Shown piece by piece: positions 14,581 through 31,826 of a stretch of 64,000 nt of DNA (within the stretch, counting starts at the first letter, position 1; each line of letters begins with the position of its first letter). The translations under genes and the position numbers were made by a program. The DNA comes from Clostridia bacterium (lineage in GTDB: Bacteria; Bacillota; Clostridia; Peptostreptococcales; Acidaminobacteraceae). The stretch spans positions 1-64,000 of the forward strand of contig JAGYOH010000007.1 of the NCBI GenBank assembly GCA_018399635.1, written 5' to 3'. A model generated the notes under the pieces. The model was not told the DNA's origin and searched no databases. It saw nothing but the letters and a program-made list of their open reading frames with translations.

Positions 14581-14609
14581 TTGTCAGGTCAAGGGACCTG
14601 TGCTATAGT
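14581..14609 (+). promoter_or_regulatory. Promoter of the TM1266/ABC operon
   Basis: TTGTCA (14581-14586), a 17-base spacer and TATAGT (14604-14609) with an extended TG motif. Transcription would begin near 14616, giving an untranslated leader of about 147 bases. Confidence 0.8.
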
Positions 14610-14615
14610 TGAGTC

Positions 14616-14750
14616 AAGAATGTTAATAATTTAACATATTCTGAGTTCAAGGGTTTTCCTGAGAGCAAGGAGCTTATCGAATGAAGGAAACCGTCCAAGC
14701 GTTTCCTAAGGATCTTCAAGCCCTGCTTTTCACAAAGCAGGGCTTTTTTA
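14616..14750 (+). ncRNA. Structured 5' leader with intrinsic terminator (candidate riboswitch)
   Basis: The leader begins with hairpin 14617-14642 (two 5-bp stems, bulge AT). It then carries mutually exclusive pairings: TTTCCT (14655-14660) can pair with AGGAAA (14685-14690), or AGGAAAC (14685-14691) can pair with GTTTCCT (14700-14706). It ends in a perfect 11-bp terminator (14719-14729 with 14734-14744) and a T-run. GAGCAAGG (14663-14670) can pair with the 5' arm of the terminator (CCCTGCTT), a plausible antiterminator. The terminator ends just before the ribosome binding site of the first gene. I do not recognise it as a named riboswitch class. Confidence 0.65.
14718..14749 (+). terminator. 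Attenuator terminator upstream of the TM1266-family gene
   Basis: The stem AGCCCTGCTTT/AAAGCAGGGCT with a four-base loop is followed by five more T residues. It sits between a strong promoter and the first gene it serves, so it must be conditional. Confidence 0.85.
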
Positions 14751-14762
14751 GGAGGAATGACC

Positions 14763-15011
14763 ATGAATCGCATCGGCGTACTCGCCATCGTGGTGGAGGA
14801 TCTCAGCCACGCCCCTGCCCTCAACGAGATTCTTCACGACTACCGGGACATCATCATCGGCCGCATGGGACTGCCCTGCAAGGACCGGGGAATCAGCATC
14901 CTCTCGGTTCTGGTAGACGGCAGCAACGACCAGATCGGCGGTCTCACCGGAAAAATCGGCTCCCTGAAAGGCGTCACCGTCAAGTCGGCCCTCACGAAAA
15001 CCCCTGTCTGA
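14763..15011 (+). CDS. TM1266-family small protein (putative iron-only hydrogenase system regulator)
   Basis: 82-residue ferredoxin-like alpha/beta protein resembling the TM1266/NikR-C-like family, often annotated as a putative regulator of the iron-only hydrogenase system. The pattern is typical: MNRIGVLAIVVED at the N-terminus, then IIIGRMGLP, ISILSVLVDG, and GKIGSLKGVTVKS at the C-terminus. It lacks a DNA-binding domain, so it is more likely a small-molecule-binding partner than a classical repressor. ATG 14763 is preferred to ATG 14757 because GGAGG then has proper spacing. No hydrogenase gene is in the window; the gene instead heads an operon with an ABC importer under a structured leader. 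Confidence 0.75.
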   Translation: MNRIGVLAIVVEDLSHAPALNEILHDYRDIIIGRMGLPCKDRGISILSVLVDGSNDQIGGLTGKIGSLKGVTVKSALTKTPV

Positions 15012-15031
15012 TCCCGCCAAGGAGGATTGTC

Positions 15032-16015
15032 ATGAAAAAAATCATCTTGTATTGCGCACTGGTCGGTCTTGTCACCCTGGGTCTCACGGGCTGTCAGGAG
15101 ACCGCCGCCGGCCCCGGACCCACAAAGGCCCTGGAGGTGAACATCGCAGGACTCAAGGGCCCCACCTCCATGGGGATGATCCAATTGATGGCCGAAGACC
15201 TGCCCCGGCTTCAGGGCTATACCCCGGTTTACACCGCCTACGGGGCACCTGACGACCTCACCGGGAAGATCATCAGCGGCGAAGTCCAGATTGCGGCGGT
15301 TCCCACCAACCTCGCCTCAGTCCTGTATCACAAGACCCAGGGCAAGATCCAGCTCCTCGGCATCAACACCCTGGGAGTCATTCATCTGGTGGGCTCAGAG
15401 CCCCTGGCGGATTTCACGGCCCTCAAGGGCAAGACCCTCCATCTCAGCGGCAAGGGCGCCACACCGGACTATGCCGTGAATTACCTTCTCGAAACCCTGG
15501 GAATCCGGGATGAAGTCACCCTGGAATTTTTTCCCGACCATCCCTCCCTCGCCCAGGCGGTGATCGCCGGCGATGCCACCTATGCGGTGCTTCCCGAGCC
15601 CTTCGTCACCCAGGTCCTTTCAAAATCCGGGGACGCCAGACTCCTCATCGATCTCAACACCCTGTGGGAGGAGGTGACCGGAGGACAATCCCTTCTGACC
15701 ATGGGGGGCCTCATCGTCAACACCCAGTTCGCCGAGGACCACCCTGATTTCCTGGCCGCCTTCCTCGCCGACTACAGAAAATCAGTCGAATTCGTCAACA
15801 CCTCCCCCGCCGAGGCCGGAGAACTCATCGCCGCCCACGGCATCCTGCCGGAAGCCGGCCTGGCGGCGGCGGCCATCCCCAACTGCGCCATCGTCCTTCA
15901 GGACGCAAAGGAAGCCCGGGAGGCGGTGGAGGGCTTCCTGAAAATCCTCATGGATTCCAATCCCAATGCCGTAGGAGGGAAACTCCCGGATGAAAACTTC
16001 TATTATCAACCCTAA
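15032..16015 (+). CDS. ABC transporter substrate-binding lipoprotein, NitT/TauT-NMT1 type
   Basis: 327 residues with a lipoprotein signal (MKKIILYCALVGLVTLGLTG, lipid Cys at 21) and a periplasmic-binding fold related to the NMT1/SsuA group. Diagnostic segments are LKGPTSMGM, VQIAAVPTNLASVLYHKTQG, LLGINTLGVIHLV and LSGKGATPDYAVNY. Paralogues of this orphan subgroup are widespread in Firmicutes; I know of no established ligand. ATG 15032 has AAGGAGG eight bases upstream; an in-frame opening from 14681 is a read-through artefact. It is the second gene of the TM1266 operon and overlaps the permease gene by 26 bases. Confidence 0.85.
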   Translation: MKKIILYCALVGLVTLGLTGCQETAAGPGPTKALEVNIAGLKGPTSMGMIQLMAEDLPRLQGYTPVYTAYGAPDDLTGKIISGEVQIAAVPTNLASVLYHKTQGKIQLLGINTLGVIHLVGSEPLADFTALKGKTLHLSGKGATPDYAVNYLLETLGIRDEVTLEFFPDHPSLAQAVIAGDATYAVLPEPFVTQVLSKSGDARLLIDLNTLWEEVTGGQSLLTMGGLIVNTQFAEDHPDFLAAFLADYRKSVEFVNTSPAEAGELIAAHGILPEAGLAAAAIPNCAIVLQDAKEAREAVEGFLKILMDSNPNAVGGKLPDENFYYQP

Positions 16016-16769
16016 GACCACCGCCATGGCCGGAGGGGTGCTTTGGCTCCTCCTCTGGCAGACCGCCGCCCTGGTCATCGACCAGGCCATCTATCTCCCC
16101 GCCCCCCTGGAGGTCATGAAACGCCTGGTCCTCCTCCTGGGGGACCCTGACTTTTTCAGAGTCCTGGGAATGACCACCTACAGGGTCCTGGTGGCCTTCG
16201 GCCTCTCAGTGGCACTGGGAGTGACCCTGGGCGCCCTTTGCGGCCTCAAACCCACCCTGGAGCATCTCTTTCGCCCCCTGGTGTCCCTGATCCGCTCGAC
16301 ACCGGTGATTTCGGTGATCATTCTGGCCATCGTCTGGCTGAACTCCACCCACGTTCCCATCTTCACAGGCTTCCTCATGTGCTTCCCCATCATCTGGACC
16401 AGTGCGGTTTCAGGAGTCAGAAGCGCCGACCCCCATCTGGTCGAAATGGCAGGGCTCTATCAGGTGAGGCCGGCCGGAATTCTTCTGAAAGTCTACCTTC
16501 CCGCCGCCCTGCCCACCCTGAAGGCGGGCTTTGTCAGCGCCCTGGGCCTCGGCTTCAAGGTCATCGCCGCCGGAGAAGTGCTTGCCCTCCCCCGGTTCGC
16601 CATCGGCAGCCGGCTCCATGATGCCAAGGTCTATCTGCAAATCCCCGATCTGCTGGCCTGGACCCTTTTCCTCATTCTCCTGAGCTATGTCTTCGAACAA
16701 CTCCTGGATCTCATGCTGAAGCATTTTCTGGATAGAAGGAGGTCGCCCCGCTATGATATCTCTGACTGA
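15990..16769 (+). CDS. ABC transporter permease, NitT/TauT (SsuC) type
   Basis: 259-residue inner-membrane permease of the nitrate/sulfonate/taurine class with about six membrane helices. The coupling loop to the ATPase lies near MAGLYQVRPAGILLKVYLP, and LIRSTPVISVIILAIVW is a typical family helix. Its ATG overlaps the end of the binding-protein gene by 26 bases, and its end overlaps the ATPase gene by 17, so all three are translationally coupled. Substrate is unknown and follows the binding protein. Confidence 0.88.
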   Translation: MKTSIINPKTTAMAGGVLWLLLWQTAALVIDQAIYLPAPLEVMKRLVLLLGDPDFFRVLGMTTYRVLVAFGLSVALGVTLGALCGLKPTLEHLFRPLVSLIRSTPVISVIILAIVWLNSTHVPIFTGFLMCFPIIWTSAVSGVRSADPHLVEMAGLYQVRPAGILLKVYLPAALPTLKAGFVSALGLGFKVIAAGEVLALPRFAIGSRLHDAKVYLQIPDLLAWTLFLILLSYVFEQLLDLMLKHFLDRRRSPRYDISD

Positions 16770-17457
16770 CATCTCCTTCAGCCATGCCGACAGAGTGATT
16801 TTCGAGGATTTCAACCTGACCCTCAACCACCATGAAATTTCAGGCATTCTCGGTCCATCGGGCATCGGCAAGACCACCCTGATCAACCTCATGGCGGGCA
16901 TCCTTCCCCTGAAAAAGGGTACCCTTCAAGGCATCGTCAAGGGGGATCTCTCCTATATCTTCCAGGATCCGAGACTCCTGCCCTCAGAAACAGTTTACGG
17001 CAACATGGCCTTTGTCCTGAAGAGACATTATCCTGATCCGAAGGCCTGCCGGGAGGTGATTCTGAGGAATCTGACCCTGGTCGGCCTGGAGGAATCCCTG
17101 GACCGCTTTCCCGACGAACTCAGCGGCGGCATGAAACAGCGGCTTTCCATCGCCAGGGCCTTCGCCACCCCCTCCCATGTCCTGTTCATGGATGAACCCT
17201 TCAAGGGACTGGATCCAGGGCTCAAGACCCAGTTGACGGCCGCCTTCAAGCGCAGCTATCAGGCCACCCGCAAAACCGTGGTCTTCGTGACCCATGATCT
17301 CGACGAGGTCCTGGCTCTCAGCGACCGGGTCATGGTCCTGGGTTCAAGACCTGCCAGGGTCGTCGCCACAGAGATCATCCCGAGGGAAGCCGGCAGTCTG
17401 CAACCCCTGGTCGATCTTGGAAAAATCAAGGCCTCCCTGCTTTCCCATATGATTTGA
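16753..17457 (+). CDS. ABC transporter ATP-binding protein, NitT/TauT (SsuB) type
   Basis: 234-residue ATPase. Walker A is GPSGIGKTT, the signature is ELSGGMKQR, and Walker B is HVLFMDEPFKGLD, with the switch His in VFVTHDLDE. It completes a three-component importer. Start at ATG 16753 behind AGAAGGAGG, inside the permease reading frame. A terminator follows immediately, closing the TM1266 operon. Confidence 0.9.
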   Translation: MISLTDISFSHADRVIFEDFNLTLNHHEISGILGPSGIGKTTLINLMAGILPLKKGTLQGIVKGDLSYIFQDPRLLPSETVYGNMAFVLKRHYPDPKACREVILRNLTLVGLEESLDRFPDELSGGMKQRLSIARAFATPSHVLFMDEPFKGLDPGLKTQLTAAFKRSYQATRKTVVFVTHDLDEVLALSDRVMVLGSRPARVVATEIIPREAGSLQPLVDLGKIKASLLSHMI

Positions 17458-31485: not shown

Positions 31486-31489
31486 GTGT

Positions 31490-31826
31490 GTGACTAAATC
31501 TATAAGCCGAGTTCTGTATTGGGTAGCCATCAATCTAGACCCTTTGTTACCAAAGGGTTCAAGCGACCTACCACGGGCAACGGCGAGCAGCCGTCTTGTT
31601 GAAGCCCTACTTGGTCTTGCTCCAGGTGGGGTTTACATAGCCATATAGTCACCTATATGCTGGTGCGCTCTTACCGCACCGTTCCATCCTTACCATTTCT
31701 GGCGGTTTATTTCTGTTGCACTATCCTTAGAGTCGCCTCCACTGGGGGTTGTCCAGCACCCTGCTCTATGGAGCTCGGACTTTCCTCGTGGGCTTTCACC
31801 CACGCGACTACCTGATTTAGTCACTC
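31490..31826 (-). ncRNA. rnpB: RNase P RNA
   Basis: About 337-nt catalytic RNA of ribonuclease P, which removes 5' leaders of tRNA precursors. On the minus strand the conserved GAGGAAAGTCCGAGCTC core lies near 31772-31788, and the universal 3' portion ACAGAACTCGGCTTAT at 31501-31516. P1 forms from GTGACTAAATC near the 5' end pairing with GATTTAGTCAC at 31490-31500. A TATAAT box (31836-31831) lies just upstream. Ends are estimated to within a few bases. Confidence 0.93.

Follow-up and report, generated by a model that had tools for sequence, protein, structure and literature searches.

The 64-kb stretch of clostridial DNA analyzed here (the window) contains an operon in which a gene for a TM1266-family protein precedes the genes of an ABC importer, with a structured leader in front of them. 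The first-pass annotation proposed this leader as a candidate riboswitch or attenuator controlling the importer. This proposal raises the questions of what kind of RNA the leader contains, which genes it serves, in which direction it switches, and what binds it.

The TM1266-importer operon and its leader

The operon is arranged in the order TM1266, SsuA/NMT1-like substrate-binding protein, permease, and ATPase, spanning 14763 to 17457 (Table 1). The first gene belongs to TIGR03959 (iron-only hydrogenase system putative regulator), which NCBIfam calls a putative regulator, and a gene of this kind is also the commonest first gene behind the RNA element described below. The TM1266 protein of the window gave a weak NikR_C match, and the one close solved relative that we found was PDB 2nzc (E = 9.7e-13), which we take to be the Thermotoga maritima TM1266 protein. 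TM1266 is a candidate small-molecule sensor of the NikR_C/ACT-like type. By profile, the solved structures nearest to the binding protein were 3hn0 (E = 3.9e-34), annotated as a nitrate transport protein, and proteins that bind taurine or sulfonates, and these do not settle its ligand. Elsewhere in the window, a class A RNase P RNA occupies 31487-31823 on the minus strand (293 bits).

Most parts of the leader were as first annotated. The promoter, which had been called strong, matches 10 of 12 consensus positions and carries a TG ahead of TATAGT, although this is a consensus match only and comparable sites are not rare by chance (4 per 5 kb seen versus 1.8 expected). Counted from the inferred start site, the leader is about 147 nt long up to the ATG at 14763, in agreement with the earlier estimate. 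The 5' hairpin was present, and relatives had counterparts in the same place, a similar one in L035 and one of different sequence in L036. The terminator reported directly before the ribosome-binding site has a stem of -18.5 kcal/mol; a simple terminator scan left it off its list, probably because the stem consumes two of the U's. The suggested antiterminator using GAGCAAGG is real in folding of a transcript lacking the terminator 3' arm. The alternative pairings of AGGAAAC also exist in folding, one as the middle hairpin and the other, with GGUUUUCC, transiently when the transcript is 88 nt long, and neither is contained in the core model. Positions 14600-14760 folded more stably than every one of 200 shuffles (z = -3.0). 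The first-pass annotation had overlooked a conserved core, which we observed between the 5' hairpin and the AGGAAAC hairpin.

Table 1. Positions in the window of the operon genes and leader features
Feature	Position	Strand	Basis
Sigma-70-type promoter, TTGTCA-17-TATAGT, extended -10	14581..14609	+	Consensus match only
5' hairpin, UGUUAAUAAUUUAACA region, outside conserved core	14620..14637	+	Folding, -4.6 kcal/mol
Conserved core hairpin	14641..14670	+	Covariation and covariance model R2
Antiterminator 5' strand (core 3' half plus AGCUU)	14661..14675	+	Minimum free energy (MFE) fold of pre-terminator transcript; cognate-pairing test across relatives
Middle hairpin GGAAACC..GUUUCC, absent from core model	14686..14706	+	Folding
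Antiterminator 3' strand (terminator 5' arm)	14718..14730	+	Folding
Intrinsic terminator, 12-bp stem to 14745, and U tract to 14749	14718..14749	+	Folding
Ribosome-binding site AGGAGG	14750..14755	+	Sequence
TM1266-family protein, 82 aa	14763..15011	+	TIGR03959, 108.6 bits, cut-off 60.8
Substrate-binding protein, VitK2_biosynth/NMT1/SsuA-like	15032..16015	+	Profile matches; SsuA_fam below cut-off
ABC permease	15990..16769	+	Profile matches
ABC ATPase	16753..17457	+	Profile matches

A conserved and covarying core hairpin

Four TM1266-importer leaders (the window, L035 from the genus of the window, L036, and L037) share UCUGAGnYCAAGGG...CUGAGnGCAAGG, which amounts to CUGAGnnCAAGG twice, and the two copies pair with each other as a hairpin. 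The resulting core is 30 nt long, and its two near-identical strands have the form CUGA-N4-AARG. A short P1 of CU/RG (14641-14642/14669-14670) is followed by a 2x2 loop (GA/AA), the freely covarying 4-bp P2 (14645-14648/14663-14666), a second 2x2 loop (AA/GA), P3 (14651-14653/14658-14660), and an apical loop of variable length (14654-14657 in the window). A scan for this hairpin shape located it upstream of 38 of 69 TM1266 genes, which include a few repeated loci, whereas shuffles of the same leaders gave an expectation of 0.25.

Aligning leaders across relatives, a check that the first-pass annotation had suggested, revealed that the core covaries. In the 26-row seed alignment (A2), each of the four P2 positions changes on both sides, a covariation that is biased since most rows were picked by a scan demanding P2 pairing; all but one of the 26 seeds of model R1 are TM1266 leaders. 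In A3 (91 distinct rows), 97.5% of the cells were paired, and double changes occurred in 186 cells versus 62.4 after shuffling and at most 48 in slid controls. In A4 (45 distinct rows), pairing was 96.0%, with 81 double-change cells versus 19.6 shuffled and at most 23 slid. Since both alignments were fitted to the model and lean in the same way as A2, we relied on the slid controls and on a second covariance model, R2, built from A4 alone. Of the A4 rows, L242 and L243 come from the family of the window, none comes from its genus, and nearly all belong to different families of the class. An unfiltered R2 search of the 64-kb window returned the core as the only significant match (30.4 bits, E = 5.3e-5), with the next at E = 0.91. 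Thus, conservation outside the terminator, on which the earlier reading had been made to depend, was found in a core that is kept and covaries in relatives.

Several variations of the element were also observed. By eye, the f10 leaders (L246, L251, L253, L254, L256-L258, and L263) contain a diverged form with a 3-bp or bulged P2; R2 detected L246, L251, L254, and L257 at E < 0.1 and L253 at 0.56, and did not find L256, L258, or L263. In 18 of 130 leaders, against an expectation of 0.05, a second hairpin precedes the core by 36 to 45 nt (L104, L107, L109-L118, L120, L121, L123, L125, L128, and L136). It has the form CUGA-stem-loop-stem-RAGG with a loop like GAUUnUAUU and one core-type loop. L139 and L230 carry tandem elements, and two R1 matches 12 nt apart in a genome of the phylum sample (G774:C1:127373-127458, minus strand) form another tandem pair. 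Just after the core in several leaders among L074-L102, a recurring Shine-Dalgarno-like AGAGGGUGAU precedes a start codon or a short frame, which may encode a leader peptide.

The element serves a TM1266 and [FeFe]-hydrogenase-maturation regulon

Matches to R1 occurred in 108 of 297 genomes of the order (E ≤ 0.1), 45 of 391 genomes of the class (E ≤ 0.02), and 37 of 398 genomes of the phylum (E ≤ 0.01), in samples that overlap. We classified 138 matches, a subset of all those found, by the first downstream gene. These were left from 162 rows after 23 duplicate places and one tandem copy of L139 were dropped and both L230 copies were kept, and forty loci had been chosen mainly because TM1266 seemed not to be adjacent. 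A gene was counted as first if it lay on the same strand no more than 900 nt away and matched a reference protein; this criterion would pass over any small unrelated gene in between. TM1266 was first in 75 cases, followed by HydG (24), HydE (15), ABC permease (5), binding protein (3), HydF (3), NifH-like (2), Peripla_BP_2-like (2), and FlgE (1), with no recognized gene in 8. Three of these eight (L173, L209, and L212) have an aspartase-like Lyase_1/FumaraseC_C gene with HydF behind it. Altogether, the first recognized gene of 130 of the 138 matches was TM1266, HydG, HydE, HydF, an SsuA/NMT1-type importer gene, or an aspartase-like or NifH-like gene. Representatives of HydE, HydF, and HydG passed NCBIfam equivalog cut-offs, whereas the importer and NifH-like names fall below theirs and denote similarity only. 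A recount with trimmed queries on 132 elements, leaving out six probable false positives or contig ends, gave an identical tally. In the phylum sample, TM1266, HydG, or HydE was first in 24 of the 28 loci examined, the exceptions being L274, L288, L296, and L298.

These findings place the RNA in a TM1266/[FeFe]-hydrogenase-maturation regulon that extends beyond the importer alone. The view that the leader controls the importer held insofar as a regulatory leader does precede it; the control is not specific to the importer, as the element also heads TM1266-HydG/HydE, HydG, HydE, HydF, aspartase-HydF, and NifH-like operons, and an importer-only regulon is ruled out by the tally of first genes. 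Importers of the same binding-protein family in Clostridium and others (L038-L049, L063, and L070) had no TM1266 that we saw, and neither inspection by eye nor the shape scan detected a core at these loci.

We considered whether the leader might be a plain one with an intrinsic terminator, resembling its relatives by chance. Relatives differ strongly in the sequence between core and terminator, as this explanation would have it, but the compensatory changes in A3 and A4, the recovery of the window core by R2, the recurrence of the element in all three samples, and the coherence of the downstream genes make it scarcely credible. Conserved structure, compensatory changes, and functionally linked genes downstream, which together mark a structured cis-regulatory RNA class, were all found. 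By these comparisons, the leader is almost certainly a member of a real and so far undescribed class of this kind.

Some matches fell outside the regulon. The matches in L169 (before flgE) and in L231 and L243 (inside open frames) are probable false positives, as are those in L170 and L171, which overlap the beginning of a gene that resembles the Peripla_BP_2 gene of L158; L177 stops at a contig edge. At L163:8814-8850 and L165:631-667, the core is followed by a hairpin that looks terminator-like by eye, and the next long frames are on the opposite strand. No target was assigned to these two elements, which could be orphan leaders or small decoy RNAs. We also observed nitrogenase-like operons with NifH-like and NifD/K-like genes under the element at L232:1021-8733 (with HydF and HydE), L158:904-8331 (with Peripla_BP_2 and FecCD importer genes and a HydE match), and L172:861-4190. 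These operons possibly encode an uncharacterized nitrogenase-like enzyme linked to the Hyd maturases.

The regulon fits H-cluster biology closely. PMC11736057 reports a close association of aspA with hyd operons and shows in vitro that the dithiomethylamine ligand can obtain its nitrogen through aspartate ammonia-lyase. An excerpted CO2-response table for Thermotoga neapolitana lists values of 5.98 for a TM1266-named gene, 6.39 for HydG, 7.52 for HydE, and 1.28 for HydF (PMC7039931).

Folding and leader layout point to a bound-is-OFF switch

In a window transcript that stops before the terminator 3' arm, the antiterminator was more stable than the core by 2.8 kcal/mol and the P2 probability was 0.07; when the full leader with its terminator was folded, this probability rose to 0.46. 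Stabilization of the core would release the terminator, because the strand at 14661-14675 otherwise pairs with 14718-14730. Across 94 leaders, the pairing of the core 3' strand with its cognate terminator arm was 2.1 kcal/mol better than with non-cognate arms (Wilcoxon 7e-7), although the cognate partner ranked first in just 5 leaders, with a median rank of 32. For two genes in this test, the queries carried an extra N terminus and the gene distances were too short.

The layout could be parsed for 128 of the 132 elements. Of the 114 elements at least 45 nt from the gene, 100 have a terminator before it, and no terminator was found for the other 14. The remaining 14 parsed elements are less than 45 nt from the gene, leaving little room for a terminator, and none has one in between; L152, which was not parsed, also abuts its gene. 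Where the hairpin abuts the gene, its 3' strand is followed or overlapped by the Shine-Dalgarno sequence, as in GAAAGGUGGA...AUG and GAAAGAAAGGAA...AUG.

These results suggest a model in which the 3' strand of the unbound hairpin would pair with the terminator 5' arm, forming a 13-bp antiterminator in the window and allowing the operon to be transcribed. Binding of a regulator would stabilize the hairpin so that the terminator forms and transcription stops, and in leaders with no room for a terminator, the bound hairpin would block the adjoining Shine-Dalgarno sequence. Because the terminator and Shine-Dalgarno layouts agree on the OFF direction, we consider it quite probable that the bound state is the OFF state.

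TM1266 as the leading candidate for the hairpin-binding regulator

The near-repeat strands of the core give its duplex a pseudo-twofold symmetry with two CUGA/AARG half-sites. This symmetry, the tandem copies, and the additional upstream hairpin are features to be expected of a site for an oligomeric protein. The order sample contains 196 genomes with HydG; among them, the element occurred in 93 of 155 with TM1266 versus 4 of 39 without it (Fisher 1.6e-8), and in one of two with a TM1266 match below the cut-off; at E ≤ 1e-3, the counts were 71 of 155 versus 1 of 39 (4.8e-8). These Fisher values overstate the association, as related genomes are not independent, and the TM1266 seeds of R1 favor finding elements in TM1266-bearing genomes. 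R1 found no match in 62 of the 155 genomes with both HydG and TM1266, and diverged f10 forms, partly missed by R1 and R2, weaken the co-occurrence test. The aligned TM1266 proteins (141 distinct sequences) have lysine or arginine at positions 3, 34, 64, and 74 in 94-100% of cases.

We also searched for TM1266 in 44 element-bearing genomes, comprising six of the order sample in which it had previously been missing and 38 others of the class. Eight had no TM1266 over the cut-off (G025, G057, G107, G150, G239, G255, G409, and G482); genus mates with TM1266 exist for G150, G025, G057, G107, and G482, and the element match of G409 falls within an open frame. The only TM1266 match in G145, an order-sample genome, was below the cut-off. 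The lone HydG-bearing exception at E ≤ 1e-3 was G150, a 98% complete genome with three elements and no TM1266, whose genus mate G668 has the gene.

Because the RNA tracks TM1266 among HydG-bearing genomes and forms a pseudo-symmetric hairpin, we regard TM1266 as the first candidate for the regulator. In the proposed mechanism, an oligomer of ligand-loaded TM1266 would recognize the symmetric hairpin, providing feedback control. We give this identification about even weight as the most likely one.

A less probable but serious possibility is a metabolite riboswitch, in which the hairpin alone would bind a small molecule of H-cluster assembly or the importer substrate to cause termination or Shine-Dalgarno blockage, with TM1266 being just one of the targets. 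The occurrence of the same RNA before biosynthetic genes and an importer follows the usual riboswitch pattern, and the tandem elements of L139 and L230, the conserved extra hairpin upstream in 18 of 130 leaders, and the elements of G150 in the absence of TM1266 would be consistent with it. However, the conserved part is just one 30-nt hairpin with symmetric loops and a variable-length apical loop, which is smaller and simpler than any aptamer known to us, and the element is rare in HydG-bearing genomes without TM1266. Since the hairpin is small and pseudo-symmetric and co-occurs with TM1266, a protein-bound attenuator is at least as likely as a riboswitch. Thus, the original proposal of a riboswitch or attenuator is supported in that the leader is regulatory, fits no known class, and has an antiterminator and a terminator, while a ligand-binding riboswitch is not favored over a protein-bound attenuator.

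A different trans-acting protein might instead bind the hairpin in the manner of LicT/BglG or PyrR. The pseudo-twofold symmetry and an attenuator layout resembling the PyrR leader would accommodate such a protein, but TM1266 was the sole candidate regulator recognized in the operons among the chosen reference proteins searched, and we consider another protein improbable. Returning to TM1266, the complete model of an RNA class that acts by OFF attenuation or Shine-Dalgarno blockage with TM1266 as the most likely regulator seems to us evenly poised between right and wrong. Within it, the switch direction is well constrained by the layout, whereas the sensor is the hypothetical part.

To our knowledge, the regulation of the three-enzyme assembly of the [FeFe]-hydrogenase H cluster has been little described. 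Through this one short element, TM1266, HydE, HydF, HydG, an aspartase-like lyase, and an importer are joined in a single regulon across many Bacillota genomes, and the sensor, its ligand, and the importer substrate can be sought by ordinary binding and reporter assays.

Hydrogenases without detected maturases in the host genus

Searches for the [FeFe]-hydrogenase family gave three matches in the genome of the window (G000) and three in a genus mate (G001). In each genome, two of these genes (L301 and L302 on contigs C31 and C23 of G000; L300 and L303 of G001) were seen by eye to carry TSCCPAW or TSCSPGW, MPCxAKKxE, and EIM[AG]CPGGC, the cysteine motifs of the H cluster; a scripted pattern for the third motif was too strict and found none. 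A search for HydG in both genomes gave no match at E ≤ 1e-100, and a joined HydE and HydF query at E ≤ 1e-3 gave GTPase-domain matches only. As the two assemblies are incomplete (95.55% and 98% complete, respectively), the absence of HydE, HydF, and HydG from the host genus is likely rather than certain. If so, the module of RNA, TM1266, and importer stands alone in this genus, making the cargo of the importer an interesting question. As a speculation that we consider improbable, TM1266 might found a family of RNA-binding sensors that read an H-cluster product and shut off HydEFG synthesis or import, with the host importer taking up a preformed H-cluster precursor or a comparable intermediate that neighbors release.

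Comparison with known RNA regulators

The first-pass annotation could match the leader to no known class, and our Rfam 15 covariance search agreed, with no family reaching its gathering score on the window leader. The best matches below threshold were isrJ (26 bits of 37) and PyrR (RF00515, 25.1 of 54), which we rejected because both are below the gathering score and the terminator hairpin forms a large part of each. The T-box covariance model gave no match in this leader. In the loci of ten relatives, no Rfam match at E ≤ 1 overlapped the element, and the sole match above its gathering score was a glycine riboswitch at L065:6669-6761, 3.3 kb away from it. The TM1266 name or product name occurs in PMC9679718, PMC10924467, and PMC7325909, and the titles and abstract openings returned by searches of openly licensed literature contained no description of this RNA or of an RNA target of TM1266.

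The joint control of an importer and biosynthesis genes by termination or Shine-Dalgarno blockage resembles the pattern of the TPP, ZTP, and THF riboswitches, and the element differs from these in that the window leader has no Rfam match at gathering score. RAT hairpins, recognized by LicT, SacY, and BglG, are about 30 nt long with two internal loops and are bound by a dimeric protein, and a bound RAT overlaps the terminator and prevents it. The element is similar in general form, with a length of about 30 nt and two internal loops. In contrast to RAT, formation of the element hairpin favors the terminator, and the core (14641-14670) does not overlap the terminator (14718-14745); both coexist in the MFE structure of the full leader.

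The pyr leader offers the other comparison. The pyr operon often includes its own regulator, PyrR. Relative to this system, the element has a low score (25.1 versus 54 bits), other genes, and a core consensus with CUGA-N4-AARG twice. As in the pyr leader, its hairpin would be an anti-antiterminator placed upstream of an antiterminator and a terminator. Folding and the cognate-pairing statistics are consistent with PyrR-type attenuation, in which a hairpin competes with the antiterminator and binding leads to termination.
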